Part shown: one piece after another, positions 8,936 to 46,821 of the stretch
How positions within the stretch are numbered: the stretch's first letter is position 1
Layout: every line of letters begins with the position of its first letter
Assembly (NCBI GenBank): GCA_011049715.1
Contig: DRHF01000109.1
Span: 1 to 64,000, forward strand
Source of the DNA: Desulfobacterales bacterium
GTDB lineage: Bacteria > Desulfobacterota > Desulfobacteria > Desulfobacterales > UBA2156
Reading direction: 5' to 3'
DNA: 64,000 bases
Position numbers and translations under genes: made by a program
The notes under the pieces: generated by a model
What the model saw: only the letters and a program-made list of their open reading frames with translations
Database searches by the model: none
Told to the model about the DNA's origin: nothing

Positions 8936-9001
8936 ACAGCAGTACCGTATGACAAGCAAGAAAACTTTAAATTCCATAAAGACCATAAAGGAAGGCATAC
9001 A

Positions 9002-9451: not shown

Positions 9452-9484
9452 TGCATGTGCAGGATAAGCATCAGCTGAAAGGTA

Positions 9485-9790: not shown

Positions 9791-9849
9791 CATAGCTTGA
9801 CGAACAAGAAAACTTTAAATCCCATAAAAACCATAAAGGAGGGTGAATC

Positions 9850-10532: not shown

Positions 10533-12656
10533 ATGGGCGACGAGACTTTGGGTAAATATAGTTCACCTGAAAACAGCAAGAAAATTTTTATTGCCTTTTT
10601 TTGTTTAGCATTTCTGATCCTTCTCGTCTATTCCAACACGTTTCATGCTTCCTGGCAATTTGATGATAAACCCAACATTGTCAACAATGGCTATTTGCAC
10701 CTCAAGGACCTGAATCCTGAATCCCTGTTTAAAACCTTTTTTACCAATCCGGCAGATCCCTGGAAAACAGGCAATAAACTATATCGACCCATTCCATGTC
10801 TGACATTTGCCCTTAACTGGTATTTTGGTGAGAACAATGTAATTGGTTACCACATTGTCAACCTGGTTATCCATTCTCTGACTGGGTTTCTGCTTTTTCT
10901 TACTATTTTGAACTTATTTCAATCTCCGAATCTTAAGCATAAATTTGCTGAAAACGCATTTTTCATCGCCCTTTTGACGGCAACGCTGTGGGCAATTCAC
11001 CCGATTCAAACCCAGGCGGTGACCTACATTGTTCAACGAATGACCTCGATGGCCACCCTGTTTTATATTCTCAGCATGTTTTTTTATGTAAAGTGCAGGT
11101 TGAGCAGTTCCTCTCTGCATCGGATCTTATTTCTTTTGGGTAGCGGGCTGGCTTTTTTATTTGCACTTGGATCCAAAGAAAACACCGCTACGCTCCCTGT
11201 CGCGTTGCTTCTGGTTGAGGTGATATGTTTTCAGGATTTAACCTCACAGCGAACTAAAAGGGTATTTCTTTGGGGGTCCATTGCCGGAGGCATGCTTCTG
11301 ATTGTCTTGTTTGTTTGGCTCTTCATCCCTGATAACTCGTTTTCATTTATAAAAGGTTATAATCACCGGCCCTTTAGTCTCACCGAACGGCTTTTAACGG
11401 AACCGAGAATTGTGTTTTTCTACTTGAGTCTCATTTTCTATCCAATGCCAAATCGGCTCTCTATTGAACATGATATAACTCTTTCCACTTCACTGTTTCA
11501 GCCACTGACAACACTCCCGGCCATTTTACTCACCTTGGTTATCATCGGGATCGGATTTTCACAGATCAGAAAACGGCCACTTATTGCTTTGGCGATTCTG
11601 TTCTTTTATCTCAACCATATCATTGAATCCACTGTCATTCCCTTGGAACTCATTTTCGAACATCGCAATTATCTTCCGTCTCTTTTTCTTTTTTTGCCCG
11701 TTGCTGCAGGATTCTCGAAGTTGCTTACCTACTACCAAAAGAGAAATAAAGCCCTAAGGGCCGTTTTGGCCGGTTTCCTTGCTTTGTCAATCATCGCAAT
11801 TGGATCGGGTACCTATATTAGAAACAGGGCTTGGGCCACAGAAATAAGCCTATGGAAAGATGCGATGGTTAAAGCACCCAAAAGCGCAAGGCCCTTGACC
11901 AATCTGGCATGGCAAATGGCCTATGTTTCTGATGCCAGCAAAAGCCAATATGACGAGGCACTTTTACTTTATGAAAAGGCACTTTTACTTCAAAAATCAA
12001 GGACACGTTTCAATCCGATCATCATGGGTAATATGGCTGGGATATATTTCAGGAAAGGTGAACATCCAAAAGCAATTGAATTGCTGGAAAAAGCCCTGGC
12101 TGTGTCTCCGGATTATGCAAAAGGCCGCTACGACTTGATCCAGATCCTGATAACGCTCGGGAGATGGAACAGCGCATCAGAGCATGCGGATTATCTCCTT
12201 ACAAAACATGCTGATCATGAAGGATACCTGAATCAAAAAGGATTAATATTATTGCATCAAAAAAGGTACGAAGAAGCGATCGAACATTTGCAAAAGTCAC
12301 TGTCAATTGCACCCCGATTCAAAACGACGTTAATGGGATTGGGTGTAGCCTTAAGTTTAAACGGAAATTACGGCAAGGCTGAAATCGTCTTGAGGCGCGC
12401 ACATCAACTACCACCTGGGAGTATGACAGCACTTTTTGGATTGATAGAAAATAGTTTAAGGGCTGGAGATATCCCCCGAGCCATGGATTATACAGACAAA
12501 CTGATCAATACTTACAATATTACCGCAGTAAAGCATCAATTGAAGAATCTTTCAAACGATCATTTTGTGCCGCCCTTATCACCTGAATTAATCTCTCAGG
12601 TAATAGCACGCCTTCTGGCAGAAAAGTCGAAGGAATTCTCGGAAATTCAGAATTAA
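10533..12656 (+). CDS. TMTC/GT-C-like membrane protein with TPRs, paralog 1
   Basis: 707 residues. About ten or more hydrophobic segments occupy residues 20-440, followed by a TPR region (about 460-690, for example AGIYFRKGEHPKAIELLEKA and KGLILLHQKRYEEAIEHLQK). The first outside loop has an Asp pair in WQFDDKPNIVNNGY, where GT-C enzymes carry catalytic acids, and AIHPIQTQAVTYIVQR matches the HPI-VESVAW motif of the next two genes. This architecture resembles eukaryotic TMTC O-mannosyltransferases. It is the most divergent of three tandem paralogs and lies right after the pilins, so protein (pilin) glycosylation is an inference. The substrate is unknown. The ATG has only a weak ribosome binding site. 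Confidence 0.75.
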   Translation: MGDETLGKYSSPENSKKIFIAFFCLAFLILLVYSNTFHASWQFDDKPNIVNNGYLHLKDLNPESLFKTFFTNPADPWKTGNKLYRPIPCLTFALNWYFGENNVIGYHIVNLVIHSLTGFLLFLTILNLFQSPNLKHKFAENAFFIALLTATLWAIHPIQTQAVTYIVQRMTSMATLFYILSMFFYVKCRLSSSSLHRILFLLGSGLAFLFALGSKENTATLPVALLLVEVICFQDLTSQRTKRVFLWGSIAGGMLLIVLFVWLFIPDNSFSFIKGYNHRPFSLTERLLTEPRIVFFYLSLIFYPMPNRLSIEHDITLSTSLFQPLTTLPAILLTLVIIGIGFSQIRKRPLIALAILFFYLNHIIESTVIPLELIFEHRNYLPSLFLFLPVAAGFSKLLTYYQKRNKALRAVLAGFLALSIIAIGSGTYIRNRAWATEISLWKDAMVKAPKSARPLTNLAWQMAYVSDASKSQYDEALLLYEKALLLQKSRTRFNPIIMGNMAGIYFRKGEHPKAIELLEKALAVSPDYAKGRYDLIQILITLGRWNSASEHADYLLTKHADHEGYLNQKGLILLHQKRYEEAIEHLQKSLSIAPRFKTTLMGLGVALSLNGNYGKAEIVLRRAHQLPPGSMTALFGLIENSLRAGDIPRAMDYTDKLINTYNITAVKHQLKNLSNDHFVPPLSPELISQVIARLLAEKSKEFSEIQN

Positions 12657-12675
12657 TATAGGAAGCACCTCTGAA

Positions 12676-14502
12676 ATGATCAGAAAAAATGCGATTATAA
12701 ATCGATTGTGGGATAGGAAATCGATGATTTGCCTTTTCTTGGTTTTAATGACCTTTGCTATTTTTTACCGGTTGTCCGGTTATGATTTCGTGAACTTTGA
12801 TGATGATTTATATGTAACGGCAAATTCTCGTGTCCAAAAAGGTCTGAACATGGAGAACATCGTTTGGGCCTTCAGCACCACCGATATTGCGAACTGGCAC
12901 CCCTTAACCTGGCTTTCTCACATGCTGGATGTTCAACTCTGGGGAATGAATTCGGGCCGGCATCACCTGGTAAATGTATTTTTTCATATCACTAATGCGT
13001 TATTGCTGTTTCTAACTCTCAACCGAATGACAGGCGCACCATGGTGCAGTGGTTTTGTGGCGGTTTTGTTTGCCCTGCATCCGATAAATGTGGAATCGGT
13101 TGCCTGGGTGGCGGAACGTAAAAATGTCCTGAGCACGTTTTTCTGGATGATGACCATGTGGAGTTACTGCCAATATGCAGAAAAGCCCGTTCGCGTGAAA
13201 TATTTAGCGGTAATTCTCTTTTTTATGCTCGGCCTGATGACCAAGCCGATGCTGGTGACATTGCCTTTTGTCCTGCTCCTTTTGGATTATTGGCCTCTTA
13301 AAAGATTCCGGTTCGCGGCTGCTTCTGTTTCAGGCCAATCACATTTTAAAGCCGACATCAAGTCACACTGTATAGGTAATTCGCACCAATCGGATGTATC
13401 ATCTTCCGATTCTTCAGCTTTTCAAAATCGATCGTTTTTAAGTCTGATTCGGGAAAAAATTCCCCTCTTTGTTTTATCTGCTTTTTCCTGTGGCGTTACT
13501 TATCTATCTCAGGATGCTTCGGGAGCTGTTCGTTCTTTGGAGGTGATACCGCTGACATCACGGATTGCAAACGCTCTGGTTTCTTATGTGGGTTATGTTG
13601 GCAAAATGATCTATCCTTTAAAATTGGCGGTTTTCTACCCATATCCAGCAATTATTCCCGGGTGGCGGATTGCCGGAGCAGGTTCCATCCTCATAACAAT
13701 GTGTTACCTGTCTTGGAAGATTCGTGTGAAACACCCGTATGTTCTTATCGGCTGGTTCTGGTACCTCGGCACATTGATTCCTGTCATCGGTCTGGTACAA
13801 GTCGGTTCCCAGGCCATGGCTGACCGCCATGCATATATTCCTTTGATCGGTCTTTTTATTGCAGGTGTTTGGAGTGTTTCAGAATTTTTGAAAGTTTATC
13901 TTTCTCGCTATAAACTGATTCCAATTGTCGCAACTCTATTGATAGGTATTCTTTTCATGATAACCTGGAAACAGATAGGTTATTGGAAAAACAGCGCGAC
14001 ACTTTTTCAACACACGATAGATGTTACCACTGATAATTATTTGGCTCGAAATAATCTTGGAAATGCAATGGTCCATTTAGGAAAAAATGATGAGGCATAC
14101 CAACATTATGCTGAAGCCCTAAGGATCAAGCCACACGATGCGAATGCGCACTATAACATGGGAATACTGCTGACCACCAAGGGTAAGCTGGATGAGGCCA
14201 TTGGTCATTATAAGGCTGCCATAAGATCCAATCCATACTTAAAAAAAGCGTATTATAACCTGGGAACGATACTGCAACAAAAAGGCAGTAATGCTGAAGC
14301 CATCATTAATTTTTTATATGCTCTACGGTTGGATTCGCGTTTTGCAGAAGCCCACAACAACCTGGGCGTCTTGCTGGCACAACAGGGAAAGATCAATGAA
14401 GCGGCCGCACATTTTTTAATGGCTGTCAGTCTGAAGACTAACTACATCGCAGCAATAAAAAACCTGCAAAAAGCGCGGAGCGACATGAGGCGTATCGATT
14501 AA
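12676..14502 (+). CDS. TMTC/GT-C-like membrane protein with TPRs, paralog 2
   Basis: 608 residues, 19 bp after paralog 1, with AGGAAG before the ATG. Membrane helices fill residues 15-430. The loop motif VNFDDDLYVTANSRVQ, NWHPLTWLSHMLDVQLWGMN, and HPINVESVAWVAERKNVLST are shared almost word for word with paralog 3. The C terminus has three or four TPRs (around 455-600, for example LGNAMVHLGKNDEAYQHYAEA). The polytopic half fits a polyprenyl-phosphate-sugar dependent GT-C transferase; the TPRs may hold protein substrate. Function inferred from architecture and context only. Confidence 0.75.
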   Translation: MIRKNAIINRLWDRKSMICLFLVLMTFAIFYRLSGYDFVNFDDDLYVTANSRVQKGLNMENIVWAFSTTDIANWHPLTWLSHMLDVQLWGMNSGRHHLVNVFFHITNALLLFLTLNRMTGAPWCSGFVAVLFALHPINVESVAWVAERKNVLSTFFWMMTMWSYCQYAEKPVRVKYLAVILFFMLGLMTKPMLVTLPFVLLLLDYWPLKRFRFAAASVSGQSHFKADIKSHCIGNSHQSDVSSSDSSAFQNRSFLSLIREKIPLFVLSAFSCGVTYLSQDASGAVRSLEVIPLTSRIANALVSYVGYVGKMIYPLKLAVFYPYPAIIPGWRIAGAGSILITMCYLSWKIRVKHPYVLIGWFWYLGTLIPVIGLVQVGSQAMADRHAYIPLIGLFIAGVWSVSEFLKVYLSRYKLIPIVATLLIGILFMITWKQIGYWKNSATLFQHTIDVTTDNYLARNNLGNAMVHLGKNDEAYQHYAEALRIKPHDANAHYNMGILLTTKGKLDEAIGHYKAAIRSNPYLKKAYYNLGTILQQKGSNAEAIINFLYALRLDSRFAEAHNNLGVLLAQQGKINEAAAHFLMAVSLKTNYIAAIKNLQKARSDMRRID

Positions 14503-14525
14503 GTTCATCAAAAGGTTTTTGTATA

Positions 14526-16316
14526 ATGGTTTCAAAACAAAATAGGAAATATTGCCACAGGGAAACTGGATCCAAAATACGGCCGACGGTCGTTGTCGGT
14601 CTTTTTCTCATACTGGCAACACTAACTGTTTATTGGCAGGTCAGAAATCATGAATTTATCGGCTATGACGATGATGGATATGTTACTGAAAATCCGCGGG
14701 TACAAAACGGATTGACCTTAAAAAATATCATTTGGGCATTCGAATCTACACATAAAAGCAATTGGCACCCTACCACCTGGTTATCCCACATGCTGGATGT
14801 TCAGCTTTTCGGAATGAATCCGGGAGGTCACCATATGACCAGTATGCTCTTTCACATATTAAACAGTTTATTGTTGTTTGCTGTGTTTAATAGGATGACA
14901 GGTAAATTATGGCAGAGTGGATTTGTTGCGGCCATGTTTGCTCTCCATCCCCTTCATGTGGAATCCGTGGCATGGGTGGCGGAGCGCAAAGATGTCCTGA
15001 GCACCTTTTTCGGGATGCTGACCCTTTGGAGTTATGCCCGTTACGCTGAACATCCGGATACAAATCGATTTTTGCCGGTTATAGGGTTCTTTGTTCTGAG
15101 CCTTATGGCTAAACCGATGTTGGTAACATTACCGTTTGTTCTGCTCCTTTTGGATTATTGGCCTTTGAGACGAGCTAAAATCAGATCCTCCGATGATGAT
15201 GCCGGTAACCTTCAACCGAGGTCGTTAGTGTTTTTCCTAATCTGGGAAAAAATTCCTCTTTTTTTTCTTTCTTTGGCATCGTGTTTCGCTACATTTTTTG
15301 TCCAGAGAAAAGGAGGAGCCATAGGCACATTTGACACACATCCATTTTTTGTTAGAGTTTCCAACGCCTTGGTTTCATATACAAAATACATCCAAAAGAT
15401 GATTTGGCCTGACAATCTGGCCGTTCTGTATCCCCATCCCGCCTCGATATACTGGTGGCAGGTTATAGGTGCTTTTCTACTACTCAGTGGGGTCACTTTT
15501 TTAGCCATCAGATATCTGAAAAAACTTCCATGGCTTGCGGTCGGATGGTTTTGGTATCTGGGTACGCTTGTCCCGGTAATAGGTCTGGTCCAGGTTGGTA
15601 CACAGGCAATGGCTGACCGGTACACTTATGTGCCGTTGATCGGTCTGTTTATCATTTTGGCCTGGGGTGTCCCTCAACTTGTGGACAGGTGGCGACACAA
15701 AACCAAATTGGTTTTTACGATATTAACGACCCTGTTCCCCATCCTTATAGCAACCTCGTGGATACAGGCGAGGTACTGGCAAAACAGTATTACGCTTTTC
15801 AGGCATACTCTGGATGTAACATCCGCAAACTTCGTTATTCAAAATAATTTGGGATTCGAGCTGGCATTTCAAAGCCGAACTGATGATGCGATTAAACATT
15901 ATAAGGAAGCATTAAGCATAAATCCCGATTTCGAAATGGCTTACATTAATTTAGGGAAGGCCCTGCTTTCCCAGGGTAAGTTGGATGAAAGTGTCAATTA
16001 TTATCAGAATGTCTTAGCAATTAAGCCGAATTACGCAGGCGTTCATCACAATCTGGGTATCATGCTGCTTCGCAGGGGAGAGATAGATAAAGCGATCTTT
16101 CATTTCCGAGAGGCACTCCGTATAAGGTATGACTATGCTGAAGTATATAACAGTCTTGGAGCCGCCATGGCAGCTAGAGGTGAAATCAAGAAAGCCATTA
16201 TGTACTTTAAAGAGGCACTACGAATAAGGCCGGATCTCCTTACAGCTGAACAAAACCTTAATAAGTTGGAGAATAAAATGGCCTTAAAGTCCAAGGTAAC
16301 TCTTGATTTTAAATAG
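14526..16316 (+). CDS. TMTC/GT-C-like membrane protein with TPRs, paralog 3
   Basis: 596 residues, 23 bp after paralog 2. Same plan: acidic loop IGYDDDGYVTENPRVQ, NWHPTTWLSHMLDVQLFGMN, HPLHVESVAWVAERKDVLST, KPMLVTLPFVLLLLDYWPL, then TPRs from about residue 445 to 585. The close match to paralog 2 over the whole length indicates duplication in place. It forms an apparent operon with the other two and with the GT2 at 16358, which could make the lipid-linked sugar donor. Which protein or glycan it modifies is not known. Confidence 0.75.
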   Translation: MVSKQNRKYCHRETGSKIRPTVVVGLFLILATLTVYWQVRNHEFIGYDDDGYVTENPRVQNGLTLKNIIWAFESTHKSNWHPTTWLSHMLDVQLFGMNPGGHHMTSMLFHILNSLLLFAVFNRMTGKLWQSGFVAAMFALHPLHVESVAWVAERKDVLSTFFGMLTLWSYARYAEHPDTNRFLPVIGFFVLSLMAKPMLVTLPFVLLLLDYWPLRRAKIRSSDDDAGNLQPRSLVFFLIWEKIPLFFLSLASCFATFFVQRKGGAIGTFDTHPFFVRVSNALVSYTKYIQKMIWPDNLAVLYPHPASIYWWQVIGAFLLLSGVTFLAIRYLKKLPWLAVGWFWYLGTLVPVIGLVQVGTQAMADRYTYVPLIGLFIILAWGVPQLVDRWRHKTKLVFTILTTLFPILIATSWIQARYWQNSITLFRHTLDVTSANFVIQNNLGFELAFQSRTDDAIKHYKEALSINPDFEMAYINLGKALLSQGKLDESVNYYQNVLAIKPNYAGVHHNLGIMLLRRGEIDKAIFHFREALRIRYDYAEVYNSLGAAMAARGEIKKAIMYFKEALRIRPDLLTAEQNLNKLENKMALKSKVTLDFK

Positions 16317-26480: not shown

Positions 26481-27914
26481 TTACGATAACCATACTACGC
26501 TTGGTTTTTGCTGTTTAAAGTACGATGAGATGGCATTCACCAATATTGGGAATGTGGCCTCAGAGCGCTGACGGCAAGTTTGCCTCACTGACAGGATACG
26601 CTCCACCCACCGGTTGCCTTTCTGGCTCTGAGTACCATTGCTTCTTTTTCGCCACAATACGCCGAAGCGAAGCGCCCGTTCCGCTCGATTGTTGGTGGGC
26701 TCAACATCGGATTCATCCAAAAAGACCCAAAGTGAATCCAACTCATCCAATATCCGACGGGCCAGCTTACCCGCATCATCATCGGCGCCTTCAAACAGCA
26801 GCAAAAGCAGTATTAAACGAGAATAAAAATCGGTCCACTGTTTTTGTTTCGGAGGTGCCTGGGCAAATTGACAAAGATGTTTCAGCTCGGCAGTCAATTG
26901 CTCACCAAAGCGTTGAACCGATTCATCCTTTCGTTCCGACAATGCCTTGGCACGGCGGATCAAATGGGCTAAACACAGCTGGCGATGATTGATCCAGTTT
27001 TTATAGACCCCATAGTCGTCACTGATGAGAATACCACGCCAGTCCTCAATTAGTGCCTCAAAGGCTTTTTGAGACCGGTTGGGGTGAACCAAAAAGAAAC
27101 AGACGTTTTTATTGACCATGGTCCAAAGCCATTTGAGCTTACCGTTTTCAAACCAGGAGGTCTCATCGATGCCGTTGACACCGGAAGTTCTGGCGATCCG
27201 GCCGATGCGTTCATAGATAGGTTTTATGGCTTCTGATGCCCGATCTAAAACTTATTGGATACCGCCAACAGAGATGGGAACATCCAAAACACTGTTGCAA
27301 AAGCGTTGGACAGCTTGACGGCTCATGCCTTCGGTGCCGCTGAGTTCTGCGATCAAGGCGCTGAACCGGGGACCATAGCCGGATTGAAACTCATTTGGCA
27401 GTGTTGCCTTAACCGTTTGTCCACACAGCCGGCATTTGCCCTGTTGCAGTATGTAATGGGTGACATCCATTTGGATTTTTGGAAGTTCAATCACTTGATG
27501 CGTGTAATAGGATTTCAACCGGTTACCGTTAAAGTCTAAGTTTCCACATGAACCCTGCTTCGGTACAATTTTTACCATATGAGTCGGTTTCAGCAGTTGC
27601 TGGCGATATCCTTTATGGCCTTTCTGAGCGCCTCTTTTACGTTTCTTTTTGTCGGCCTTCTTCTTGAGCTGCTTAAAAGGGCCGTCCGATGAAGGCGGTT
27701 TATTCGAGTTTTGAGAATTTTGATTGAGCCGATTTTCTAATTGCTCAATACGCTTGGCCAACTGATCAATTTTGACAACTAATTGAGCGTTGATCTGCTC
27801 CTGGGCCTCAATATATCTGCGGACCGCTTCGGGAGTTTTAAGCCACTCAGACAAGGAAAAAGGTCTTCTAAATTCCATGCCTGAAAGGCTATCATAGTGA
27901 GACTCCGCCCGCAA
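26481..27914 (-). pseudogene. tnpC: IS66-family transposase (TnpC), interrupted by an in-frame stop
   Basis: Two blocks of one frame (27914-27252 and 27119-26481, joined by open sequence) make a complete TnpC: a leucine-rich N-terminal coiled coil, the NSNKPPSSDGPFKQ region, a CxxC zinc motif (GKCRLCGQ), then DETSWFENGKLKW and LISDDYGVYKNW of the DDE domain, and the C-terminal ERALRFGVLWRKRSNGTQS block. A TAA at 27252-27254 after VGGIQ breaks it. A likely element end, GTAAACGTTCACAGGG, lies near 26449; the other end was not found and may be cut by the adjacent IS200. No TnpA/TnpB is present, as in the ISBst12 group. Confidence 0.88.
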
Positions 27915-27954
27915 AGCGGGTGGCCTCAGGAAGCCCCAAAGGGGCTATTATGAT

Positions 27955-28377
27955 TTATTCAAAATCAAAATCCAGTTGTTTTACAGCTTCTTCCTGTTCA
28001 CGAATATATTTGCGGATGGTTTCTTCATCCAAACCAACTGTACTCACGCAGTATCCTCGGGACCAGAAATGCTTACCCTTCGTTTGTTTGCTTTTTAGCA
28101 AATACCGGTGGATTCGAACTGCGCTCTTTCCTTTCAAGAAACCAATTACAAACGCAATGCTGAACTTCGGAGGAACGCTCAGACACATGTATATATGGTC
28201 CAACCTCAAATTGCCTTCCAATAATTCAACTTCACGTTGCCGACAAAGATCTTTTAGAATATCGCCAACATTGCGCTTAAATTTCCCGTATAATTTCCTT
28301 TTCCGATACTTTGGAACAATGACCACATGGTATTTGCAATCCCAACGAACGCGCGATAAACTTTGCCAATCATGCAT
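27955..28377 (-). CDS. tnpA: IS200-type transposase TnpA with altered HUH motif
   Basis: 140 residues, full family length. RVRWDCKYHVVIVPKYRK, the SVPPKFSIAFVIGFLKGKSA block and the C-terminal helix EETIRKYIREQE with the nucleophilic Tyr are intact. The HUH metal motif reads LDHIYMCL, where the family has DHIHM; one C-to-T change (CAC to TAC) would explain it. That probably abolishes metal binding, so the protein may be inactive. The ATG is at 28377, preceded by AGGAGGAAGAACC. Confidence 0.9.
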   Translation of the reverse strand: MHDWQSLSRVRWDCKYHVVIVPKYRKRKLYGKFKRNVGDILKDLCRQREVELLEGNLRLDHIYMCLSVPPKFSIAFVIGFLKGKSAVRIHRYLLKSKQTKGKHFWSRGYCVSTVGLDEETIRKYIREQEEAVKQLDFDFE

Positions 28378-32025: not shown

Positions 32026-32320
32026 CTATGTTTCTGAATTCAGGTGGGCCATAATCTCCTCCGGGGTATTCCACATCAACACGTCAATGATCGAGAGTCC
32101 AGGAACGAAATCCCAGCGTCGGCAATCATATTCCATATTCTGGAATTCTTGGATTTTGAGGGTGATGCCGCTGGCAGCGAAGTTCCCAGTGTCAAAAGTA
32201 TCAGCTCCGCCAGGGGAATTGAGGTATTCCGTCGCGCCCATTGCTTCTGAAATTCGCAGCGCCCAGTCGACGACAAACGCTTTTCAACACTCCCACGTTC
32301 AGGTGCGAGATATAAGATTC
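32026..32320 (-). pseudogene. WbqC-family protein fragment with a frameshift
   Basis: The lower frame reads EAMGATEYLNSPGGADTFD, GITLKIQEFQ and PGLSIIDVLMWNTPEEIM, matching the C-terminal half of WbqC-like proteins from O-antigen loci. The preceding homologous stretch NVGVLKSVCRRLGAANF is in a different frame, with the switch near 32252. The N-terminal half is missing. Confidence 0.65.
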
Positions 32321-32342: not shown

Positions 32343-32563
32343 ATTTCATTCGATCTGCCGGGTTTTGGTTTTTCCAAAGAAACAGAGAAGTTCAAATACA
32401 CTGTAGGGGTAAAAACGATCTGATTCTTCCTCCTGAAAATGCGTTTAAATTGGAAAAACACTTCAAACATGCCAAAGTAGCACTTCTACCAAAATGTGGT
32501 CATTTACCTCATGAAGAAAAGGCCGATGATTTCAATAAACTCGTTTTACAATATCTTTCTTGA
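32343..32563 (+). pseudogene. Alpha/beta hydrolase fragment with internal deletion
   Basis: One frame gives FDLPGFGFSKETEKFKYTVG, the early oxyanion region of an alpha/beta hydrolase. After a stop near 32418, another frame gives KNDLILPPENAFKLEKHF and LLPKCGHLPHEEKADDFNKL, the catalytic Asp and His region, ending at 32561-32563. The nucleophile elbow and lid between them are deleted, and the two parts are out of frame. Confidence 0.7.
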
Positions 32564-32575: not shown

Positions 32576-33880
32576 TTATGATGTGGGTATCGGTCGAGAA
32601 ACCCATCGAACAAGATGATGATTTAACATATATCCGTCCCAGGGAAGTTCAAATTGCGTCATCGCACCAAGCTCGGTAAATCGCTGTACTCCTTTTTCCG
32701 CAAATAACATTGTCAGGATTTCATATCTTTCCTTTTCAGCAATCAAGCCAACTGATTGTACATTTGGGGTGATAAGATCGGCAACACGCTCCAGACGATC
32801 TACTTTTCTAATGAATAACGTTCTGTTTCCTATTGGGGGTCCCAATTTTATCTCATCGTCCGAAAGAATTGTAAACTCAATACCGTCAGAATACCAAGCT
32901 TTATGAAACATATCATATTGTGCTCTTAAATTCAAAATTGCCGAAACTTCCTTTTGAGTTGGAACTGTTTTAGGAATGGACAGAAGTGCATTATTTAATG
33001 CTTGCTTAAGAAGAAACGCAAATTCTTCCAGTTCAGTTTCATCTTCGGTCTCAAGGAACAATGTGTGAGGCGATGCACAGGCCTTTTGCTCAAAGACGGA
33101 CATGTCCGTGGCAATCCGTTTTGAAATAGTCTCCTTGTCAATTGATTGTAAAGAATTTTTATCGATAATCATCAATGAGGTTTTATTGGAAAAAACCAAA
33201 TCCATGACTCCAAGTTTGGCAGGAAGCGAACGTAAAGCTTTGACGCTATCATCATTTCCCCAAAATATTCGAACGTCTGCATGTTCGGAAATAAATCGTC
33301 CCAATTCTTTCTTAGAACTATCATATCGGATAACAGCAATAGATCTTGCCAACTCTTTGCAACTATGGTTCTCATCAATTGTTACCTTGGAAAGAATTTC
33401 CAAGAGTCGGGCCAGTAAATCACCAGATTGGGAAGATGTCTTGATCAGGTTAACATTTTTAGTTAATATTCCCTGGATTAGTGATAGAAAACCTAAAGTT
33501 GGTACATTACCGGCCATCCAGTGAATCACCAAGCCTCTGGGTAAAGCGCGATATGAGCGGTTTTTTACAGCTGACCCTGACACGAAGCTATCAAGGACAT
33601 ATATGTCTGAAAAACTGTTTTTTAGCAAACGAATTAGATTTGATTTACGGCACCACCCAGCAATATATGCAATACCAGAATTCGGAAAAGCACGATGAAT
33701 GGGATTTTGTCTATCCATTAGTCTCTTACTGAAATCATCGAAAACGTCGATAATCTTACCTACTGGCAATTGTCCCAGAACATTTCCGGCATTTATAATG
33801 CCATCGATAATTTCAGATATTTTATAGTTTTCCTGTGCAACCCGCCCATTATAAAAATCAGCTTGAACTTGCTCCATCAC
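32576..33880 (-). CDS. luxC: LuxC-like acyl-CoA/acyl-protein reductase
   Basis: 434 residues, an aldehyde-dehydrogenase-superfamily protein of the LuxC group, which reduces a thioester-bound acyl chain to an aldehyde using NADPH. Visible features: RGLVIHWMAGNVPTLGFLSL near 115-135, VNLIKTSSQSGDLLARL near 145, VRIFWGNDDSVKALR near 205, and the likely catalytic Cys in FEQKACASPHTLF (about residue 266). The start overlaps the LuxE stop by 4 nt, so the two are coupled. There are no luciferase genes here; O-antigen loci are known to carry LuxC/LuxE pairs of unclear role. Confidence 0.85.
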   Translation of the reverse strand: MMEQVQADFYNGRVAQENYKISEIIDGIINAGNVLGQLPVGKIIDVFDDFSKRLMDRQNPIHRAFPNSGIAYIAGWCRKSNLIRLLKNSFSDIYVLDSFVSGSAVKNRSYRALPRGLVIHWMAGNVPTLGFLSLIQGILTKNVNLIKTSSQSGDLLARLLEILSKVTIDENHSCKELARSIAVIRYDSSKKELGRFISEHADVRIFWGNDDSVKALRSLPAKLGVMDLVFSNKTSLMIIDKNSLQSIDKETISKRIATDMSVFEQKACASPHTLFLETEDETELEEFAFLLKQALNNALLSIPKTVPTQKEVSAILNLRAQYDMFHKAWYSDGIEFTILSDDEIKLGPPIGNRTLFIRKVDRLERVADLITPNVQSVGLIAEKERYEILTMLFAEKGVQRFTELGAMTQFELPWDGYMLNHHLVRWVSRPIPTS

Positions 33881-34989
33881 GCAAATTTCTCCGCCATAAT
33901 ATCACCACAGCCCCGAATTTCAGCTTGCTTTGCTCTCCCCAACACCTTGAAAGTTTTTCCTTTCCTTCCACAAGAACAGTCATCAATCCCTGTAATACAG
34001 CCCACATCCTCTGTTAACACCGAATGCCCGGGATAAGATGTTTGTATTGGGGTAATAAACTGAAGCAAGCCTTCTTCACCAATTCTCATCGGATTTAATG
34101 AAAGCTGATCTCTGACAACAACCTCACCCCATATTGGAACATGTCTTACCCCTGCTTCACATGTTGGATAGATCATACCGGATTGTTCTGTAAAACCGTA
34201 GAAGTCAACAACATCCCCCTTATTAACACCAAAAACGTCACTACAATCGGCAATCAATTTCTTTGGAGATACTTTTTCAGACTCAAGTTTCTTCCATCCA
34301 CCAATGTGTATAATCTTACTGCCTTTGAGTTTGTATTTCATCTTCTTTTCTAAAAGCTTACGTACAACAACCGAGTAAAGAATATAGGTAAAACCAAAAA
34401 TTATAATTTCCTCTTTTGCATTTTCAGCCTCAAGTAAAAGTTTGTCAAATTTATCGTCATCAAGGTTGAACTTCCCATCTATTTCTTCAAGGCAGGTATG
34501 AGTTTTACCGGCACAAAATAATAAGGATCGAATGGTAGAGCTTCTAGCCGTAACTTGCCTATTTCTACCAACAGATTCGGGGGTATCTATAACAATAAAT
34601 TTCCTTCGCTTATTTCCAAGCCGATTAAGGACAACTTTGTTAAAACATTTGGACTGCCGGCGGCTTGTCTCTTTATCCAAAGCTATACGACTAGATCTTC
34701 CACTTGTAGTTGCACTTGAGCTTATAGTTCTGAAAATCTTATTTTCAGGTATAGATAACAGCAATGCATCTTTGAATATAGAAGCTGGCAAGTACGGCAA
34801 TTCTTCAATTTGCTGCCATTTATCATAATTAAACCTTCTCTTCTTGCAGAAGTTTTGATATGGCTGACAATTATTATAATGATGATGTGCTACTTTTCTT
34901 AAAACTTCAATTAATAATGAAGATTTATGCGCTCTATCTAGTGAATATACTTCTTTCATTAAAAGATCGTTAAGATGTTTAAACTCCAT
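33877..34989 (-). CDS. luxE: LuxE-like acyl-protein synthetase
   Basis: 370 residues, an adenylate-forming enzyme of the LuxE group that activates a carboxylic acid as acyl-AMP and passes it to a thiol acceptor. Features: EELPYLPASIFKD near 60, a glycine/serine/threonine-rich nucleotide loop SSSATTSGRSSRI near 90, VDFYGFTEQSGMIYPTC near 258 and VLTEDVGCITGIDDCSCGRKG near 325 with a CxCG motif typical of the family. It lies between an ACP and LuxC, so the acceptor is probably that ACP (inference). Confidence 0.85.
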   Translation of the reverse strand: MEFKHLNDLLMKEVYSLDRAHKSSLLIEVLRKVAHHHYNNCQPYQNFCKKRRFNYDKWQQIEELPYLPASIFKDALLLSIPENKIFRTISSSATTSGRSSRIALDKETSRRQSKCFNKVVLNRLGNKRRKFIVIDTPESVGRNRQVTARSSTIRSLLFCAGKTHTCLEEIDGKFNLDDDKFDKLLLEAENAKEEIIIFGFTYILYSVVVRKLLEKKMKYKLKGSKIIHIGGWKKLESEKVSPKKLIADCSDVFGVNKGDVVDFYGFTEQSGMIYPTCEAGVRHVPIWGEVVVRDQLSLNPMRIGEEGLLQFITPIQTSYPGHSVLTEDVGCITGIDDCSCGRKGKTFKVLGRAKQAEIRGCGDIMAEKFA

Positions 34990-35000
34990 ATTTCTATACC

Positions 35001-35237
35001 TTATGTAAGTTTTGATTCAAAGAATGATACTATCATTTTAAAGTTTTCAAGTTCTATGCCTTCGTCAGGATTTATTTCAATGGAAAAAGTTTCTTCAAGT
35101 GCTGAAATCAACTGAACGTGGGCCAGAGAATCCCAGGATTCAACATTGTCGGGATTCGAGGAATCGGTAATGGAATCCTCATGAACTTCCATAACTTGGG
35201 AAAACACGCCTATACAAGTCTGCCTAACATTATTCAT
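35001..35237 (-). CDS. Stand-alone acyl carrier protein
   Basis: 78 residues from ATG 35237, which has GGAG 8 nt upstream (an earlier TTG in frame lacks a site). The four-helix ACP signature is NVESWDSLAHVQLISALEE, with the phosphopantetheine Ser in WDSLAHV, followed by FSIEINPDEGIELENFKMI. The acidic bias is typical. Placed 11 bp before luxE and 3 bp after a methyltransferase stop, it is presumably the acyl carrier of this cassette rather than of housekeeping fatty acid synthesis. Confidence 0.9.
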   Translation of the reverse strand: MNNVRQTCIGVFSQVMEVHEDSITDSSNPDNVESWDSLAHVQLISALEETFSIEINPDEGIELENFKMIVSFFESKLT

Positions 35238-35261
35238 AAAAAATCTCCAGATTAACAATAT

Positions 35262-36224
35262 TTATTTAACAGCCAAAACTGCTGCGTAATTAATGTTATG
35301 TCCATCTTTCTCAGATTCTTCAATGGTCATTTGTCTTAATGTGCCCAAATGCTCATCTAAAACCCTCCATTTACATTTGTCTATAAAATCTCGAATTTCT
35401 TTCACAGTTCTAAAAAGTAGAATGTGGTCTTCGGCGGGAGAGTTAGCAGCTGTTGAAAAATAGCAAAAGCCTGAGGTTTTCATTTTAGTAGCCATGTTTG
35501 ACATCACTGCTTCACCATCCTGAATATGCTCTATAAGCTCTCCCATCAGCAAAGCATCAAGAGATTCATCCTCAACTGGAATTTCCTTTTGTATATCACA
35601 AATAATGGGCTCTGCTCTTTTGGAATCAACACCAGTTGCTTCAATCATCTTTTGCGTCATTTTCAAAGCTGATGGGCTGATATCAATAAGTTTGGATTGC
35701 ATCTCCGGACAACCGCGCAAGAGCTCGGAATGAAAAAGCCCATGGCCAACACCAACTTCAGCACCATTTGAAAAGTCCTTTACCTTGGGAATAAAACTAT
35801 CAAGAAAAAATTTAAATATTTCCCAATGGTTCGGCCAAAATATCTGGGTCATGCCTAAGCCTACAACATAATCAATCATATAATCGTCACGCCCATAAAC
35901 TTTTCTAAATACTTCTTCATAATCAGAATACCTATAATTGCCTTCTTTCCTAAAGTACATCTCCTCAATGCGAATGGTTTTCGTATACCAGAGATATGTT
36001 TTCGCAATATATTCATATCCATCCTCGCAATCTACTACCTTCAGCATTCTATTTGCAAGACTTTCAGCAAATTCAAAATATCGTTTATCAGCAATATTGC
36101 AATATCTATTAATTGCTTTTTTCTGAAAAGGCGATAACGCGGCAATTTGTTCAATTATTTTATATAAATTCGTGTAGTTTTTTACCATATCAGCCACATT
36201 TTCCTCCCTCATATTATTTTTCAT
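35262..36224 (-). CDS. SAM-dependent methyltransferase-like protein
   Basis: 320 residues. An N-terminal helical domain (1-145) of unknown kind contains FQKKAINRYCNIADKRYFEF. The SAM-binding part begins FSNGAEVGVGHGLFHSELL (motif I) and continues KLIDISPSALKMTQKMIEA, EPIICDIQKEIPVEDESLD, and LLMGELIEHIQDGEAVMSNM. The start overlaps the preceding gene by 11 nt. In this operon it could methylate the acyl chain or the amino sugar; neither can be chosen from sequence. Confidence 0.72.
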   Translation of the reverse strand: MKNNMREENVADMVKNYTNLYKIIEQIAALSPFQKKAINRYCNIADKRYFEFAESLANRMLKVVDCEDGYEYIAKTYLWYTKTIRIEEMYFRKEGNYRYSDYEEVFRKVYGRDDYMIDYVVGLGMTQIFWPNHWEIFKFFLDSFIPKVKDFSNGAEVGVGHGLFHSELLRGCPEMQSKLIDISPSALKMTQKMIEATGVDSKRAEPIICDIQKEIPVEDESLDALLMGELIEHIQDGEAVMSNMATKMKTSGFCYFSTAANSPAEDHILLFRTVKEIRDFIDKCKWRVLDEHLGTLRQMTIEESEKDGHNINYAAVLAVK

Positions 36225-36912
36225 TTTTCTGAATCACTTCCGGCTCATTAAAGAAAAAACATATTTCAGCTTCAAAATTTACATTCAAACCCTTTACTGA
36301 ACATCTGCGAATAAGGTAGCATTTACCATTATGATGAACTGTTGACTTGTTCTTAAACTTGACTTCTTTATATATTGAAAACTCACTATTATCCGGCCAT
36401 TTAAAATTGGTTAAATATGCCCATGATGGCCTACCACTTACCCCAGTATGAATCACCTCGGCCATGCAGTATCGGTAGTTTGCTTCTACTACTCCACGAA
36501 CAAGAGAAAATGTGTCAGATATATTATTTAGAACAGTTAAATATATACCATCTTCACTTTTATACTCATCTTCAATGTATATACTTCGATCATAATCTTC
36601 CTTTCTCTCAACAACTGGTTGTCTTTTTTGTTCAAATAGTAAAAGTTTTTTTCCTCCACTTTCTCCGGTCAAAATGTGCATCTGGGCAGCAGCATCTCGA
36701 CTTATAATATTTGAAGCATCATCATCTTTAATCTCTAAAAAACAATTAGACCTAATGAACCGATTGATTTTGAATGATTTAATACTTGTGATAAATCCAT
36801 TCTCATTACTTATCTTATCTATTTTTTGATAACTTTTCAGCATTTCTTCAAAAATAGTTAAACCATTCACATAATCTCGTTTGCCCAAGTAAAACAATGG
36901 AATATATATCAT
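36214..36912 (-). CDS. Protein of unknown function in the acyl/amino-sugar cassette
   Basis: 232 residues from ATG 36912, chosen because GAGGAG lies 7 nt upstream. Not recognised. The N terminus MIYIPLFYLGKRDYVNGLTI and the C-terminal half, which alternates short beta-like stretches (GIYLTVLNNI, YCMAEVIHTG, YLIRRCSVKGLNVNFEAEI), could suggest a hotdog-like fold, but that is only an impression. No signal peptide, no membrane helix and no clear catalytic motif were seen. Overlap with the methyltransferase downstream shows it belongs to the same transcript. Confidence 0.6.
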   Translation of the reverse strand: MIYIPLFYLGKRDYVNGLTIFEEMLKSYQKIDKISNENGFITSIKSFKINRFIRSNCFLEIKDDDASNIISRDAAAQMHILTGESGGKKLLLFEQKRQPVVERKEDYDRSIYIEDEYKSEDGIYLTVLNNISDTFSLVRGVVEANYRYCMAEVIHTGVSGRPSWAYLTNFKWPDNSEFSIYKEVKFKNKSTVHHNGKCYLIRRCSVKGLNVNFEAEICFFFNEPEVIQKNEK

Positions 36913-37007
36913 ACATATTCTCCTCAATTTTCCATCTTACATTTTAGGTAAATAATAGTGTCTTCTTCCGATGTCTTTTTATCAATAGTTTTTGAATTAT
37001 GTTGCAT

Positions 37008-37949
37008 TCACGAATACCGTGCTGGTACTCCTGATAATTTCCCGCTATATGTCTTCAAATTCAATTTCTCCGCAGGGTTTCCAAATAACGTTATGCCGGT
37101 TTCTTTAAAATTCTTTACTACAACAGCCCCAATTCCAATTGTTGTATTATCAGGTATTTTGATATGAGGTCTGGCAGAAGTTGCGGACCCCAAAAAACAG
37201 TTCTTTCCGCTCTGTACAGAACCTGCCAGAGAAACATTACTTGCCAAGTGGTTATTTTCTCCTATAATACAGCTATGTCCAATTAAAGTCCCATGACCTA
37301 TTAAACTCTTTCTTCCAATAATTGTAGGTGTGTTCTCAAAGGCACCTTTAACAATTGTGACATTAGAACCTATAAATACATCATCTTCAATAATGACATT
37401 TCCTGTTTGCAAACACCGTATCTTATTTCCTTTTTCATCCCAGGCCCACATGACACCGGTAGCGCCAATTACAGAATTGGACTGTATATGAATATTATCT
37501 CCTATTTTAGTACCTTTATGAATTTTCACTCCGGATTCAATTAGCACATTTTCCCCAATCAAACAGTCCTCTATCAAACTAAATGGACCAATAGATGCAT
37601 TTTTTCCTATAATAGCAGATTCATGAACAATTGAATGAGGATGAATTTCATAATCCCTTTTGTTTTCAAATAAAGAAGATATATAATAAAATAATAATTG
37701 TGGATGTTTAGTAAAAATGTAAGCGTTTTTCAGCTTTTCATTTATTTTTAAATCGGGCTTACAGATGATAATTGATTTTTCTATTCTCTCTATACTATCC
37801 GGCTTATTACCTTCATAATAACATAATGTTTCTTTTACTTCCGGACCTATGGCTGATAATTTATTAACTTGTATATCATCTCCATGTACATTGAATTCTA
37901 GATTCTTTGAATTCAAAAAATCTATTATAGTTTCTAATTTAATAACCAT
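37008..37949 (-). CDS. LpxD-like hexapeptide-repeat N-acyltransferase
   Basis: 313 residues. An N-terminal LpxD-like domain (1-105, with TKHPQLLFYYIS where LpxD has its nucleotide-binding region) is followed by a left-handed beta helix: repeats such as ESAIIGKNASIGPFSLIED, GENVLIESGVKIHKGTKIG and IGHGTLIGHSCIIGENNHL, with His residues where LpxD has its catalytic base. The family moves acyl groups from ACP to an amino sugar on a nucleotide. With an ACP and a sugar aminotransferase in the operon, N-acylation of a nucleotide-amino sugar is the natural inference. A GAGG site precedes the ATG. Confidence 0.8.
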   Translation of the reverse strand: MVIKLETIIDFLNSKNLEFNVHGDDIQVNKLSAIGPEVKETLCYYEGNKPDSIERIEKSIIICKPDLKINEKLKNAYIFTKHPQLLFYYISSLFENKRDYEIHPHSIVHESAIIGKNASIGPFSLIEDCLIGENVLIESGVKIHKGTKIGDNIHIQSNSVIGATGVMWAWDEKGNKIRCLQTGNVIIEDDVFIGSNVTIVKGAFENTPTIIGRKSLIGHGTLIGHSCIIGENNHLASNVSLAGSVQSGKNCFLGSATSARPHIKIPDNTTIGIGAVVVKNFKETGITLFGNPAEKLNLKTYSGKLSGVPARYS

Positions 37950-38042
37950 TTTAATAACCTCACATAAATTTCCTTAAAACTGTTCTTGGACAATAGTGGT
38001 TTTATTATACTTAAAACTACAAATTTAAATTTGTTCCCCTAA

Positions 38043-39239
38043 CTAACTAACTTTTGAGATAGAATATGTGCGTGAAGTGGTTACTTCTTCAGTAATTTGC
38101 ATTGCTGTTGTTCTTTCTCTATGAATATGCATAATAATATCACAAATTCGATTCACATCATCCAGACTCAAATCATAATAAGTGGGCAATGTTAGAATAC
38201 GTTCCGAAACTTTCTGCGCTACTTTCAGGGAGGCAACTATCGATATGCTTTTATAACACGCGAAATCACATATTAGCGGATAAAAATATCGTCTCGCAAA
38301 AACATTGTATTGATTCAGTTTTTCATAAAGTTCATCGCGGTTCATGCCGAACTCCTTCTCATCTACTTCGATAGGCATGTAGGCGTAGTTGTATCGAATG
38401 TCCTCTGGGAGTGGTGGTGGCAGATGGATTCCAGGAACTGTGCTGAACCTCTCGCGATAAAGCGTGTCGATCTGCTGGCTCTTTTCGATGATTTCGTCGA
38501 AATACTTGAGGACATGGATGCCCATAAGGGCCTGTATTTCGGTCATCTTGGCGTTGGTCCCGGGCATCACGACTTCGACTTGGCTCTTAAAGCCGAAATT
38601 CTTCAGGTAGTCAAAAGTGCTTTTGAGACCCGAATCCTTAAAGGTCAAGAGGCCACCTTCGAGGGAGTGGTAGGACTTGGTGGCATGAAAGCTGAACATG
38701 CTCATATCGCCAAAGTGCGCGATAGACCTGCCGTTCACCTCTACGCCGAATGCGTGCGCCGCGTCGTAGATCAGGTTCAGATTGTGACGCCGGGCAATGT
38801 CTGCCAAGGCGTGCAAATTGGCAGGATAACCAAAGACATGGACCGCGAGGATCGCAGTGGTCCAAGGGGTAATGGCTGCCTCAACCTTCTCGGGGTCTAA
38901 TGTATAGTAGTCTGGCTCGATGTCCACGAAAACGGGCCGGATCTTATTCCAGAAGAGAGCGTGAGTGGTGGCAACGAAAGTGAACGGGGTCGTGATAACC
39001 TCGCCGGAAATTCCCATCCCCTGCAGCCCGATTTGCAGCGCCAAGGTGCCGTTGGTAAAGAGACACGCATTATCCGTCTGGAAATAGTGAGACAACTGAC
39101 GGGTGAAACGCTGAAGAACTGGTCCGTCGTTCGTCAGCCAGTGGGTATCCCATATTTCCTTAAGGCTTTCACAGAAATCCTCAAACCTTGGCAAAAATGG
39201 CTTGGTAACATATATCGGCTTTTTAAAAGGTTTTATCAT
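38043..39239 (-). CDS. DegT/DnrJ/EryC1-family sugar aminotransferase
   Basis: 398 residues, a PLP enzyme that aminates a nucleotide-linked keto sugar. Motifs: FTNGTLALQIGLQGMG near 58-75, VITTPFTFVATTHALFW, YDAAHAFGVEVNGRS (cofactor Asp), and the PLP Lys in SMFSFHATKSYHSLEGG (about residue 187), then NFGFKSQVEVVMPGTNAKMTE. GGAG precedes the ATG. It is the first gene of the apparent operon running to luxC. The part encoding residues 1-300 is visibly richer in G and C than the last quarter and than the genes after it, which suggests a mosaic or recently recombined gene. Confidence 0.88.
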   Translation of the reverse strand: MIKPFKKPIYVTKPFLPRFEDFCESLKEIWDTHWLTNDGPVLQRFTRQLSHYFQTDNACLFTNGTLALQIGLQGMGISGEVITTPFTFVATTHALFWNKIRPVFVDIEPDYYTLDPEKVEAAITPWTTAILAVHVFGYPANLHALADIARRHNLNLIYDAAHAFGVEVNGRSIAHFGDMSMFSFHATKSYHSLEGGLLTFKDSGLKSTFDYLKNFGFKSQVEVVMPGTNAKMTEIQALMGIHVLKYFDEIIEKSQQIDTLYRERFSTVPGIHLPPPLPEDIRYNYAYMPIEVDEKEFGMNRDELYEKLNQYNVFARRYFYPLICDFACYKSISIVASLKVAQKVSERILTLPTYYDLSLDDVNRICDIIMHIHRERTTAMQITEEVTTSRTYSISKVS

Positions 39240-41814: not shown

Positions 41815-41943
41815 TTCCCTCCAAAGGGAAAATAGCTAAGAAATCACCCTAAAATTATTTTAGCTTACTGATAATACTTGATATAATATACATTTTATAA
41901 AAGTTTTTCTTTTCAAATATGCATATGAGAGGAAAACATGGGG
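41815..41943. repeat. 129-bp direct repeat, copy A
   Basis: It aligns without gaps to 43984-44112 with about four-fifths identity by eye. Both start TTCCCTCC, contain AGCTAAGAAATCACC and the palindrome-like TAAAATTATTTTA, and end with GAGGAAAACATGGG, a ribosome binding site and ATG that leads only to a very short frame. They look like two copies of the leader of a gene whose coding part was lost. The remaining 41703-42200 holds nothing else recognisable. Confidence 0.75.
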
Positions 41944-43983: not shown

Positions 43984-44112
43984 TTCCCTCCTAAGGAAAA
44001 CCAGCTAAGAAATCACCGTAAAATTATTTTAACCTTCTGATAATACATGGCATAACGTATATTTTATGATAGTTTTTCCTCTCAAATACGCATACGGGAG
44101 GAAAACATGGGA
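43984..44112. repeat. 129-bp direct repeat, copy B
   Basis: Second copy of the repeat at 41815-41943, same orientation, 2.17 kb away. Its ATG (44107) opens a frame of seven codons only. It lies in the upstream region of the GT-C-like gene at 42201-43964. Confidence 0.75.
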
Positions 44113-46227: not shown

Positions 46228-46821
46228 TTATGAGTGTAGGGCAATAGGTTTTTTTAAGGGCTTCCCGATTCCGCTATGTTTCTTTGCTTCCCAGATCAAC
46301 AGCCATGGTCGATTTTTCATCTTTGCATGAAAACTTTCGAACTCGTCTTTTCCCAGCACCAAAGATCGTATCTTACGTTTGATGTATCGTTCAGTTTTTC
46401 TGCTCAAATCGTTAAGATGATATTCGTCGATATCCCCAACCAACAAGAGATCGATGATGCCAGTATCTTTACCCTCTGCATAGTCATCGATCAGATACGC
46501 CCGTTCGAGATCGCCCAGTCTCATTACGATGCTGTCTATCACCTGATCGATCCCCATCACCTTGCTGACCATCGATTTAAGTTCCGGAAAAAGGGAGTGT
46601 TTCGTATTGGCCATATAATAGATCTGCCGACCGTTTTTCTCAGATTTGAGCAGATCGGTCTTCGTCAATTGGTTAAGTTCTTCACGCACGGAATTGGTAG
46701 AAACGTCAAATTCCTTGGCCAATTCTCTCAAATAAGACTTGGCCTGCGGATTAAAGAAAAGGCGGATCAGCAGTTTAATCCTTGTCTTTGAAGCGATAAG
46801 ACCTGATAAAAGATTGTCCAA
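46228..46821 (-). CDS. Winged-helix regulator with nucleotidyltransferase-like C-terminal domain
   Basis: 197 residues. The N-terminal winged helix (5-75) includes SKTRIKLLIRLFFNPQAKSY and ELAKEFDVSTNSVREELNQL. The C-terminal half contains DTGIIDLLLVGDIDEYHL, resembling the strand with the two Asp of a minimal nucleotidyltransferase fold but without the usual GSxxxG motif, so it is probably non-catalytic. Proteins of this type are often found at polysaccharide loci. An inverted repeat over its own -10 box (46836-46854) suggests autoregulation. Confidence 0.78.
   Translation of the reverse strand: MDNLLSGLIASKTRIKLLIRLFFNPQAKSYLRELAKEFDVSTNSVREELNQLTKTDLLKSEKNGRQIYYMANTKHSLFPELKSMVSKVMGIDQVIDSIVMRLGDLERAYLIDDYAEGKDTGIIDLLLVGDIDEYHLNDLSRKTERYIKRKIRSLVLGKDEFESFHAKMKNRPWLLIWEAKKHSGIGKPLKKPIALHS

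Follow-up and report, generated by a model that had tools for sequence, protein, structure and literature searches.

What do homologs of the LuxE and LuxC proteins of luminous bacteria do in an operon with sugar-modifying genes? The question is raised by a 64,000-nucleotide stretch of a Desulfobacterales genome, hereafter the window. A preliminary description had read seven of its genes as one unit, forming a dedicated route, based on an acyl carrier protein (ACP), for decorating an amino sugar or making an aldehyde in a surface glycan. The seven ORFs are intact, all on the minus strand and where that description had placed them, and its family names were borne out by Pfam matches over cut-off (DegT, hexapeptide repeats, Methyltransf_11, PP-binding, LuxE and LuxC). 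From DegT to LuxC, the intergenic distances are 93, 80, −11, 3, 11 and −4 nt, so tight coupling is found only in the last five genes; the overlaps or short gaps described between most genes hold for these five but not around the LpxD-like gene, which is flanked by the 93 and 80 nt gaps. DegT also deviates in composition (GC 0.470, GC3 0.56) from the other six genes (GC 0.32–0.39, GC3 0.24–0.35). A scan of the operon for promoters and terminators gave no informative signal.

The window belongs to a draft genome (94.8% complete, 5.35% contamination, 461 contigs). Next to LuxC, a convergent alpha/beta-hydrolase remnant lies on the plus strand (32345–32563, ends approximate). Comparison of its translation by eye with intact counterparts (L023:8330–9190 and L004:12484–13311) revealed that it is degraded, and it is non-functional in the window. 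A WbqC fragment also adjoins LuxC, and transposase-like genes were seen, by eye, in the wider cluster.

Conservation was assessed in a census of about 1,100 genomes, mainly from one phylum. Five genes, for a predicted double-hotdog protein, a methyltransferase, an ACP, LuxE and LuxC, occur together in four other genomes, in the same order at loci L002, L003 and L004 and rearranged at L023. Across these loci, identity to the window is 54–72% for the methyltransferase, 50–68% for LuxE and 43–62% for LuxC, with LuxE and the methyltransferase about 70% identical between the window and L002/L003; on the sugar side, it is about 30% for the LpxD-like and DegT proteins. The five-gene core is rare and portable, and DegT and the LpxD-like gene are exchangeable sugar-side genes that vary by locus. 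Gene-order comparison was the test that the preliminary description had set beforehand for its seven-gene unit: the five core genes were kept together in all four other genomes, whereas the DegT/LpxD pairing failed.

At L003, PseB, PseC, PseF and PseG (over curated cut-offs) are followed by the core and then by an LpxD-like and a NeuB/PseI-like gene; L002 is organised likewise and also has Maf, FliS and FliD. In both, the core sits inside a pseudaminic-acid operon with a different LpxD-like gene (30% identical). An AAC(3)-type N-acyltransferase is found near the core at L004 and L023, the two being 52.6% identical to each other. This placement of core relatives in pseudaminic-acid operons beside N-acyltransferases upholds, in outline, the proposed ACP-based decoration of an amino sugar in a surface glycan. 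The argument that the LpxD-like enzyme replaces a missing PseH was dropped after a control with PseB-positive genomes: PseH was over cut-off in none of the six genomes tested, but among the 23 PseB-positive genomes in the order only 2 had it over cut-off (5 at E ≤ 1e-12), so lacking it does not set the Pse-type relatives apart. Plasmid carriage was likewise rejected, as plasmid LuxE relatives are at most 34% identical and mostly from Rhizobium. More distant LuxE–LuxC fusions have AMP ligases and Fe-alcohol dehydrogenases as neighbours (none detected at L010 and L014), and an ACP was detected in 10 of 11. The Fe-alcohol dehydrogenase at L005 is similar to lactaldehyde, 4-hydroxybutyrate and phosphonate-type dehydrogenases, i.e., enzymes of small aldehydes.

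The LuxE-family acyl-protein synthetase (33877–34989) matched PF04443 with 254 bits (cut-off 24.9). Its C-terminal acyl-accepting cysteine, in the motif RGCGDIM, is kept in all five core loci; in the alignment, GCGD falls opposite GCSL of 7xc6 chain E. The LuxC-family acyl reductase (32576–33880; PF05893, 264 bits, cut-off 21) likewise retains the cysteine of QKACASP, aligned to LuxC of 7xc6, in five of five core loci; LuxC reduction is therefore probably real. Both proteins score far below the NCBIfam long-chain equivalog cut-offs (LuxE 92.6 against 550 bits, LuxC 112 against 750). As the preliminary description held, reading the window ORF lists by eye turned up no luciferase gene, and no intact LuxD-like hydrolase was seen adjoining the operon. 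By these scores and this reading of the ORF lists, the pair does not qualify as a luminescence-type long-chain lux fatty acid reductase, which calls for equivalog scores together with luciferase genes. The stand-alone ACP (35001–35258) is 78 aa long from an ATG at 35237 and matched PF00550 with 22.3 bits (cut-off 20.8). Its phosphopantetheine serine motif (DSL in the window) is present as WDSL/WDSV in all five core loci, with pantetheinylation putative.

The protein left unrecognised by the preliminary description (36214–36927) can now be assigned a predicted fold. It comprises 237 aa from a TTG start, or 232 aa from an internal ATG, and matched no Pfam or NCBIfam model. Its AlphaFold2 model (pLDDT 82, pTM 0.83) gave 27 PDB matches at E ≤ 1e-3, with best TM-scores of 0.4–0.47, and the described identities of these matches were double-hotdog dehydratases, pyran synthases, thioesterases and MaoC proteins, or entries containing such domains. 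The model thus predicts a double-hotdog fold like that of acyl-ACP/CoA dehydratases and thioesterases. Homologs were found at L002, L003, L004, L023 and L026. No invariant histidine was found in the alignment of six sequences, one of them partial; the protein is thus not a standard dehydratase, and a canonical PKS/FabZ-type dehydratase role, which relies on a catalytic histidine together with Asp/Glu, was rejected. It likely acts on an acyl-ACP thioester.

The SAM methyltransferase (35262–36224) matched PF08241 with 43 bits, and its N-terminal ~150 aa are predicted to be helical. Its AlphaFold2 model is poor (pLDDT 59), so the Foldseek matches to small-molecule O-methyltransferases carry little weight. 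Distant relatives have FkbH as a neighbour at L067 and L068, joined at L068 by an ACP and an N-acyltransferase. A relationship to the AprA-type methyltransferase beside the L023 core was discarded for want of meaningful blastp similarity. Its substrate is probably the acyl group carried by the ACP. By analogy, the enzyme could act on the sugar instead, since VioM of P. syringae methylates the sugar (PMC3927599).

Outside the conserved core, the DegT/DnrJ/EryC1/StrS sugar aminotransferase (38043–39239) matched PF01041 with 315 bits. Its best model was DesI (TIGR04427, 319 bits, below the cut-off of 650) and its best PDB match 2po3 (E = 3.7e-70), and the PLP lysine motif HATK is aligned and kept. 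In sequence, it is closest to DesI, a dTDP-4-keto-6-deoxyglucose 4-aminotransferase. The hexapeptide N-acyltransferase (37008–37949) scored 168 bits against the LpxD models; we call it LpxD-like rather than LpxD because it falls below both curated cut-offs (207 and 242.5), although the histidine of the LpxD motif IAHN is retained as IGHS in the alignment to E. coli LpxD (3eh0). It probably catalyses acyl transfer onto the amino sugar. RmlB is over cut-off in the window genome. PseB over cut-off is absent there and present in five other genomes with the core or its hotdog gene, and the draft genome gave no flagellin match. Given these results and the DesI-like DegT, the surface-polysaccharide sugar in the window is probably a dTDP-4-amino-4,6-dideoxyhexose.

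With modest confidence, we propose a two-layer, ACP-based acylation of an amino sugar, in which the portable core makes one particular short acyl group and the sugar-side genes use the product. LuxE would adenylate a carboxylic acid and keep the acyl group as a cysteine thioester, and the ACP would carry the chain. The methyltransferase may methylate the acyl group, most likely at a hydroxyl, the hotdog protein may process or hydrolyse the thioester, and at some stage LuxC would turn an activated carboxyl into an aldehyde by reduction. In the window, DegT would make a dTDP-4-amino-4,6-dideoxyhexose of the viosamine type, the LpxD-like enzyme would N-acylate it, and the modified sugar would enter a Wzx-dependent surface polysaccharide. 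We infer that the ACP of the core is the acyl donor and that the acyl group is short, and likewise the order in which the core enzymes act, what each of them acts on and which sugar is made in the window. Because an N-acyltransferase needs a thioester donor, the LuxC aldehyde has no direct use in this acylation scheme.

The length of the acyl chain is the first point on which the proposed scheme may be challenged. The core might instead load and reduce a long-chain fatty acyl group, so that the glycan carries a lipid, and LpxD itself is a transferase of a C14 hydroxyacyl group. A liposugar has also been proposed for enterobacterial and Aeromonas islands with LuxE, LuxC, ACP and FabG (PMC4875605, PMC7874193). 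We consider this unlikely: LuxE and LuxC score far under their long-chain cut-offs, the L005 dehydrogenase partner resembles enzymes of small aldehydes, and the structures cited for comparable islands bear short groups (3-hydroxybutyryl, di-O-methylglyceroyl). The LuxE and LuxC families and their conserved cysteines would also fit a classical lux role, in which a fatty aldehyde serves luminescence or ends up as wax or alkane; with relatives in glycan operons, scores below the long-chain cut-offs, and neither a luciferase nor an intact LuxD-like hydrolase seen, this role is highly improbable.

Carboxylic-acid reduction might also be the purpose of the core, with an aldehyde, or an amine formed by transamination, as the real product and the sugar genes as secondary users. 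The LuxC cysteine conserved in every core locus and the PLP aminotransferase adjoining in the window speak for this, yet DegT lies outside the conserved core, and the core loci share neither an alcohol dehydrogenase nor a second aminotransferase. Conversion of the LuxC aldehyde into an amine by DegT was itself rejected, because in L002 and L003 the core-adjacent DegT genes encode sugar aminotransferases (PseC over cut-off). This reading, too, seems improbable to us. Finally, the degraded hydrolase and WbqC fragment, the transposase-like genes and the mosaic composition would suit an island whose copy in the window is decaying and no longer functional. Against this stand seven of seven intact ORFs, the inspected motif residues kept in DegT, the LpxD-like protein, ACP, LuxE and LuxC, and the ~70% identity of LuxE and the methyltransferase to L002/L003; the hydrolase was undetected in two of the other core loci as well. 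Decay is an unlikely explanation.

Returning to two-layer acylation, the prediction is that the core sets the substituent and the neighbours set the sugar. More tentatively, and less likely than not, the core may be a mobile pathway, complete in itself, for a sugar substituent not described before (e.g., a short acyl group that is O-methylated and partly reduced). Swapping the N-acyltransferase would connect it to different nucleotide sugars, and LuxE/LuxC would serve glycan biosynthesis by reducing short-chain carboxylic acids. Occurring with either of two sugar pathways and either of two N-acyltransferase types, the five genes offer a small, expressible test system for LuxE/LuxC in glycans.

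The nearest tested analogue is the viosamine island of P. syringae pv. tabaci (vioA, vioB, vioM, vioS, vioR, acp and vioT), whose first six genes yield N-(3-hydroxybutyryl)-2-O-methylviosamine (PMC3927599). Like the window, it combines a sugar aminotransferase, an N-acyltransferase, a methyltransferase and a dedicated ACP, and these make an N-acylated, methylated 4-amino-4,6-dideoxyglucose. However, its acyl group comes from a KAS III (VioS) and a ketoreductase (VioR), where the window has LuxE, LuxC and the hotdog protein, and it modifies flagellin, which found no match in the window genome. FkbH-type flagellin loci such as L068 (flagellin, Maf, ACP, FkbH, the methyltransferase relative and an AAC(3)-type N-acyltransferase) resemble the core in that ACP-bound short acyl groups would feed a flagellin sugar; FkbH supplies the acyl group there, whereas the core loci show LuxE/LuxC and no FkbH was seen in them. 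Besides Cj1295, further genes of Campylobacter jejuni are presumably connected with these loci. A pseudaminic acid with di-O-methylglyceroyl is known from this species (PMC3068675). The LuxC/LuxE fatty acid reductase of luminous bacteria (7xc6) is homologous to the window pair and has the same motif cysteines, but the similarity is only ~70 bits, and the window adds a stand-alone ACP, a methyltransferase and the hotdog protein, with relatives set in glycan loci.

The preliminary description had placed LuxC/LuxE pairs in some O-antigen loci; our literature search on LuxE/LuxC with O-antigen returned only reporter, flagellin and unrelated papers, and the precedent that we found for ACP/LuxE/LuxC lies in flagellin glycosylation islands. 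Many such islands are reported to carry the set without a known product. Aeromonas group II islands are described there with acp, fabG, an AMP-dependent synthetase, luxE and luxC (PMC7874193), and enterobacterial ones with Acp/LuxE/LuxC (PMC4875605); L046 carries an Aeromonas-like set. The islands share with the window an ACP together with LuxE and LuxC of unsettled function in a surface-glycan locus, but have FabG and an AMP ligase; among their fatty-acid genes, the available passages describe neither a hotdog protein nor this methyltransferase. By gene content, L002 belongs with flagellin glycosylation islands (Maf, FliS, FliD), whereas the window, in a draft genome that gave no flagellin match, does not. 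ACP/LuxE/LuxC sets are already published from Aeromonas and enterobacterial flagellin islands, and what is new here is the variant with a hotdog protein and a methyltransferase, and its use outside flagellin.

The seven same-strand genes of the preliminary description were recovered as seven ORFs on the minus strand, at matching positions (39239-32576), coding in 5′ to 3′ order for a DegT aminotransferase, an LpxD-like protein, a hotdog protein (formerly an unrecognised 232-aa product), a methyltransferase, an ACP, LuxE and LuxC. Profile searches against Pfam and NCBIfam upheld the family assignments of the other six; the hotdog protein had no match in either. Gaps of 93 and 80 nt set the DegT and LpxD-like genes apart; among the five genes that follow, neighbours overlap or are at most 11 nt from each other. 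DegT has a GC content of 0.470 and a GC3 of 0.56, compared with 0.32-0.39 and 0.24-0.35 in the other six. Spacing and DegT composition suggest a five-gene core with two added genes.

Beside LuxC lies an alpha/beta-hydrolase remnant (32345-32563, plus strand), with a DLPGFGFS piece closely joined to a C-terminal GKNDLILP...HEEK piece; by eye, it matches intact hydrolases of the core loci L023 and L004. The C-terminal part of a WbqC-like protein (PF08889) is present as a fragment at 32026-32241 (minus strand). Elsewhere in the window, transposase-like ORFs (26481-28377; by eye, an apparently split transposase and an IS200-like one) lie within the polysaccharide cluster, and a 128-nt direct repeat, 84% identical (41815-41942 and 43984-44111), flanks a gene for a 587-aa membrane protein. 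Tandem pairs comprise very similar pilin-like genes (9002-10302) and similar large membrane-protein genes (12676-16316).

A LuxE scan of genome contigs returned 16 loci, L002, L003 and L004 among them; L023 (genome G275) came from the search with the hotdog alignment. The gene order sought in other genomes was conserved in part: the five-gene core recurs, in order in L002, L003 and L004 and rearranged in L023 (LuxC, transposase, alpha/beta-hydrolase, hotdog, LuxE, methyltransferase, ACP), whereas the pairing with DegT and LpxD-like genes varies by locus. Identities to the window were 54-72% for the methyltransferase, 50-68% for LuxE, 43-62% for LuxC, 46-56% for ACP and 25-53% for the hotdog protein, and about 30% for LpxD-like and DegT proteins. 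In the LuxE tree, which has long branches in several rows and weakly supported finer structure, the five core members separate from a fusion group adjoining ACP, AMP ligase and Fe-alcohol dehydrogenase genes (support 92/92). Directly 3′ of the core ACP, L023 carries a gene (12325-14244, plus strand) whose product combines an AprA N-terminal domain with winged-helix and MT2-like ones (PF23526, PF23589, PF23525).

Motif residues, which we take to be catalytic from general family knowledge, are retained. The QKACASP cysteine of LuxC aligns to the QACFST cysteine of the Photobacterium-type LuxC in PDB entry 7xc6, LuxE has its C-terminal GCGD cysteine and the ACP its DSL serine; these three motifs are common to all five core loci. 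The IAHN histidine of the LpxD-like protein and the PLP lysine motif of DegT are also present.

The AlphaFold2 model of the hotdog protein (four-sequence alignment; pLDDT 82, pTM 0.83) showed a repeated helix-plus-sheet pattern. Its best Foldseek matches, with modest TM-scores of 0.4-0.47, were double-hotdog acyl-ACP/acyl-CoA enzymes: pyran synthase, PKS dehydratases, TesB and FatA thioesterases, and MaoC. Standard dehydratase chemistry appears unlikely, because no histidine is invariant among six aligned homologs, one of them partial. E148 and R144 are invariant in all six, and D138 in the first four. An alignment search found the protein in 4 of 390 class genomes, the window's own included, and in one further genome of the phylum draw. 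In locus L026 (genome G319) its gene lies at a contig edge, clustered (2749-9019) with neighbouring HMG-CoA-synthase-like, MaoC, ACP and KAS III genes and with genes for GNAT and DegT proteins. This cluster probably specifies a further acyl-sugar route, in which the acyl group is beta-branched. G319 was not one of the genomes with LuxE in the order draw, so the link between hotdog protein and LuxE is not obligatory.

Distant methyltransferase relatives (27-30% identity) adjoin FkbH genes, over the cut-off, in loci L067 and L068; L068 further holds ACP, an AAC(3)-type protein, flagellin and Maf. FkbH-type proteins put glyceryl groups on ACP. The flagellin of C. jejuni is modified with di-O-methylglyceroyl pseudaminic acid, for which Cj1295 is required (PMC3068675). 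Given these neighbours and this precedent, methylation of an ACP-bound hydroxyacyl group by the window enzyme is plausible. In P. syringae, VioM methylates viosamine itself (PMC3927599). In L067 (2888-5964), the relative also lies beside a methylmalonyl-CoA-epimerase-like VOC protein, with NeuD, WbqC and DegT nearby; the intact WbqC is two genes from the NeuD-like neighbour.

The sugar side differs among loci. L003 has PseB, PseC, PseF and PseG above curated cut-offs, then the core, then LpxD-like and NeuB/PseI-like genes (the latter below cut-off); L002 is arranged likewise, with Maf, FliS and FliD further on. PseB is also encoded in L004, whose AAC(3)-type N-acyltransferase is 52.6% identical to the one in L023. 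The window genome yielded no PseB over cut-off and no flagellin match, absences that are provisional in a draft genome; it has RmlB over cut-off, and the window DegT is a DesI-like aminotransferase. Together, these observations point to a putative dTDP-4-amino-4,6-dideoxyhexose of a surface polysaccharide. The window cluster also codes for glycosyltransferases and, by eye, a flippase-like protein. The absence of PseH was dropped as uninformative, since most PseB-positive genomes of the order also lack it. A winged-helix-like protein (46228-46821, minus strand; function assigned by eye) is 78% identical to the protein encoded immediately before PseB in L003 (3437-4030, plus strand) and may be a regulator that glycan islands have in common.

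For LuxE and LuxC, we propose that a short carboxylic acid would be both loaded on ACP and reduced to an aldehyde or alcohol. This would explain the gene sets of more distant loci. In 11 of these, a LuxE-LuxC fusion adjoins genes for AMP ligase and Fe-alcohol dehydrogenase; phmmer detected ACP in nine, and none in L010 and L014, two loci whose starts lie near the end of a contig or locus. The Fe-alcohol dehydrogenase of L005 resembles small-aldehyde dehydrogenases. L046 (NeuD-like, ACP, FabG, AMP ligase, LuxE, LuxC) has the gene set of Aeromonas group II islands (PMC7874193). The window core contains neither alcohol dehydrogenase nor AMP ligase. A luminescence-type fatty aldehyde is disfavoured as the product; an aldehyde or amine is possible, as is a lipo-sugar, proposed for glycosylation islands in PMC4875605 and PMC7874193. 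The window copy may also be a decaying island.

We conclude that the window operon is probably an ACP/LuxE/LuxC glycan-acylation set of a known, functionally unsettled type. New in comparison with known sets are the hotdog protein and methyltransferase in the core, unremarked before, and the use of such a set outside flagellin.
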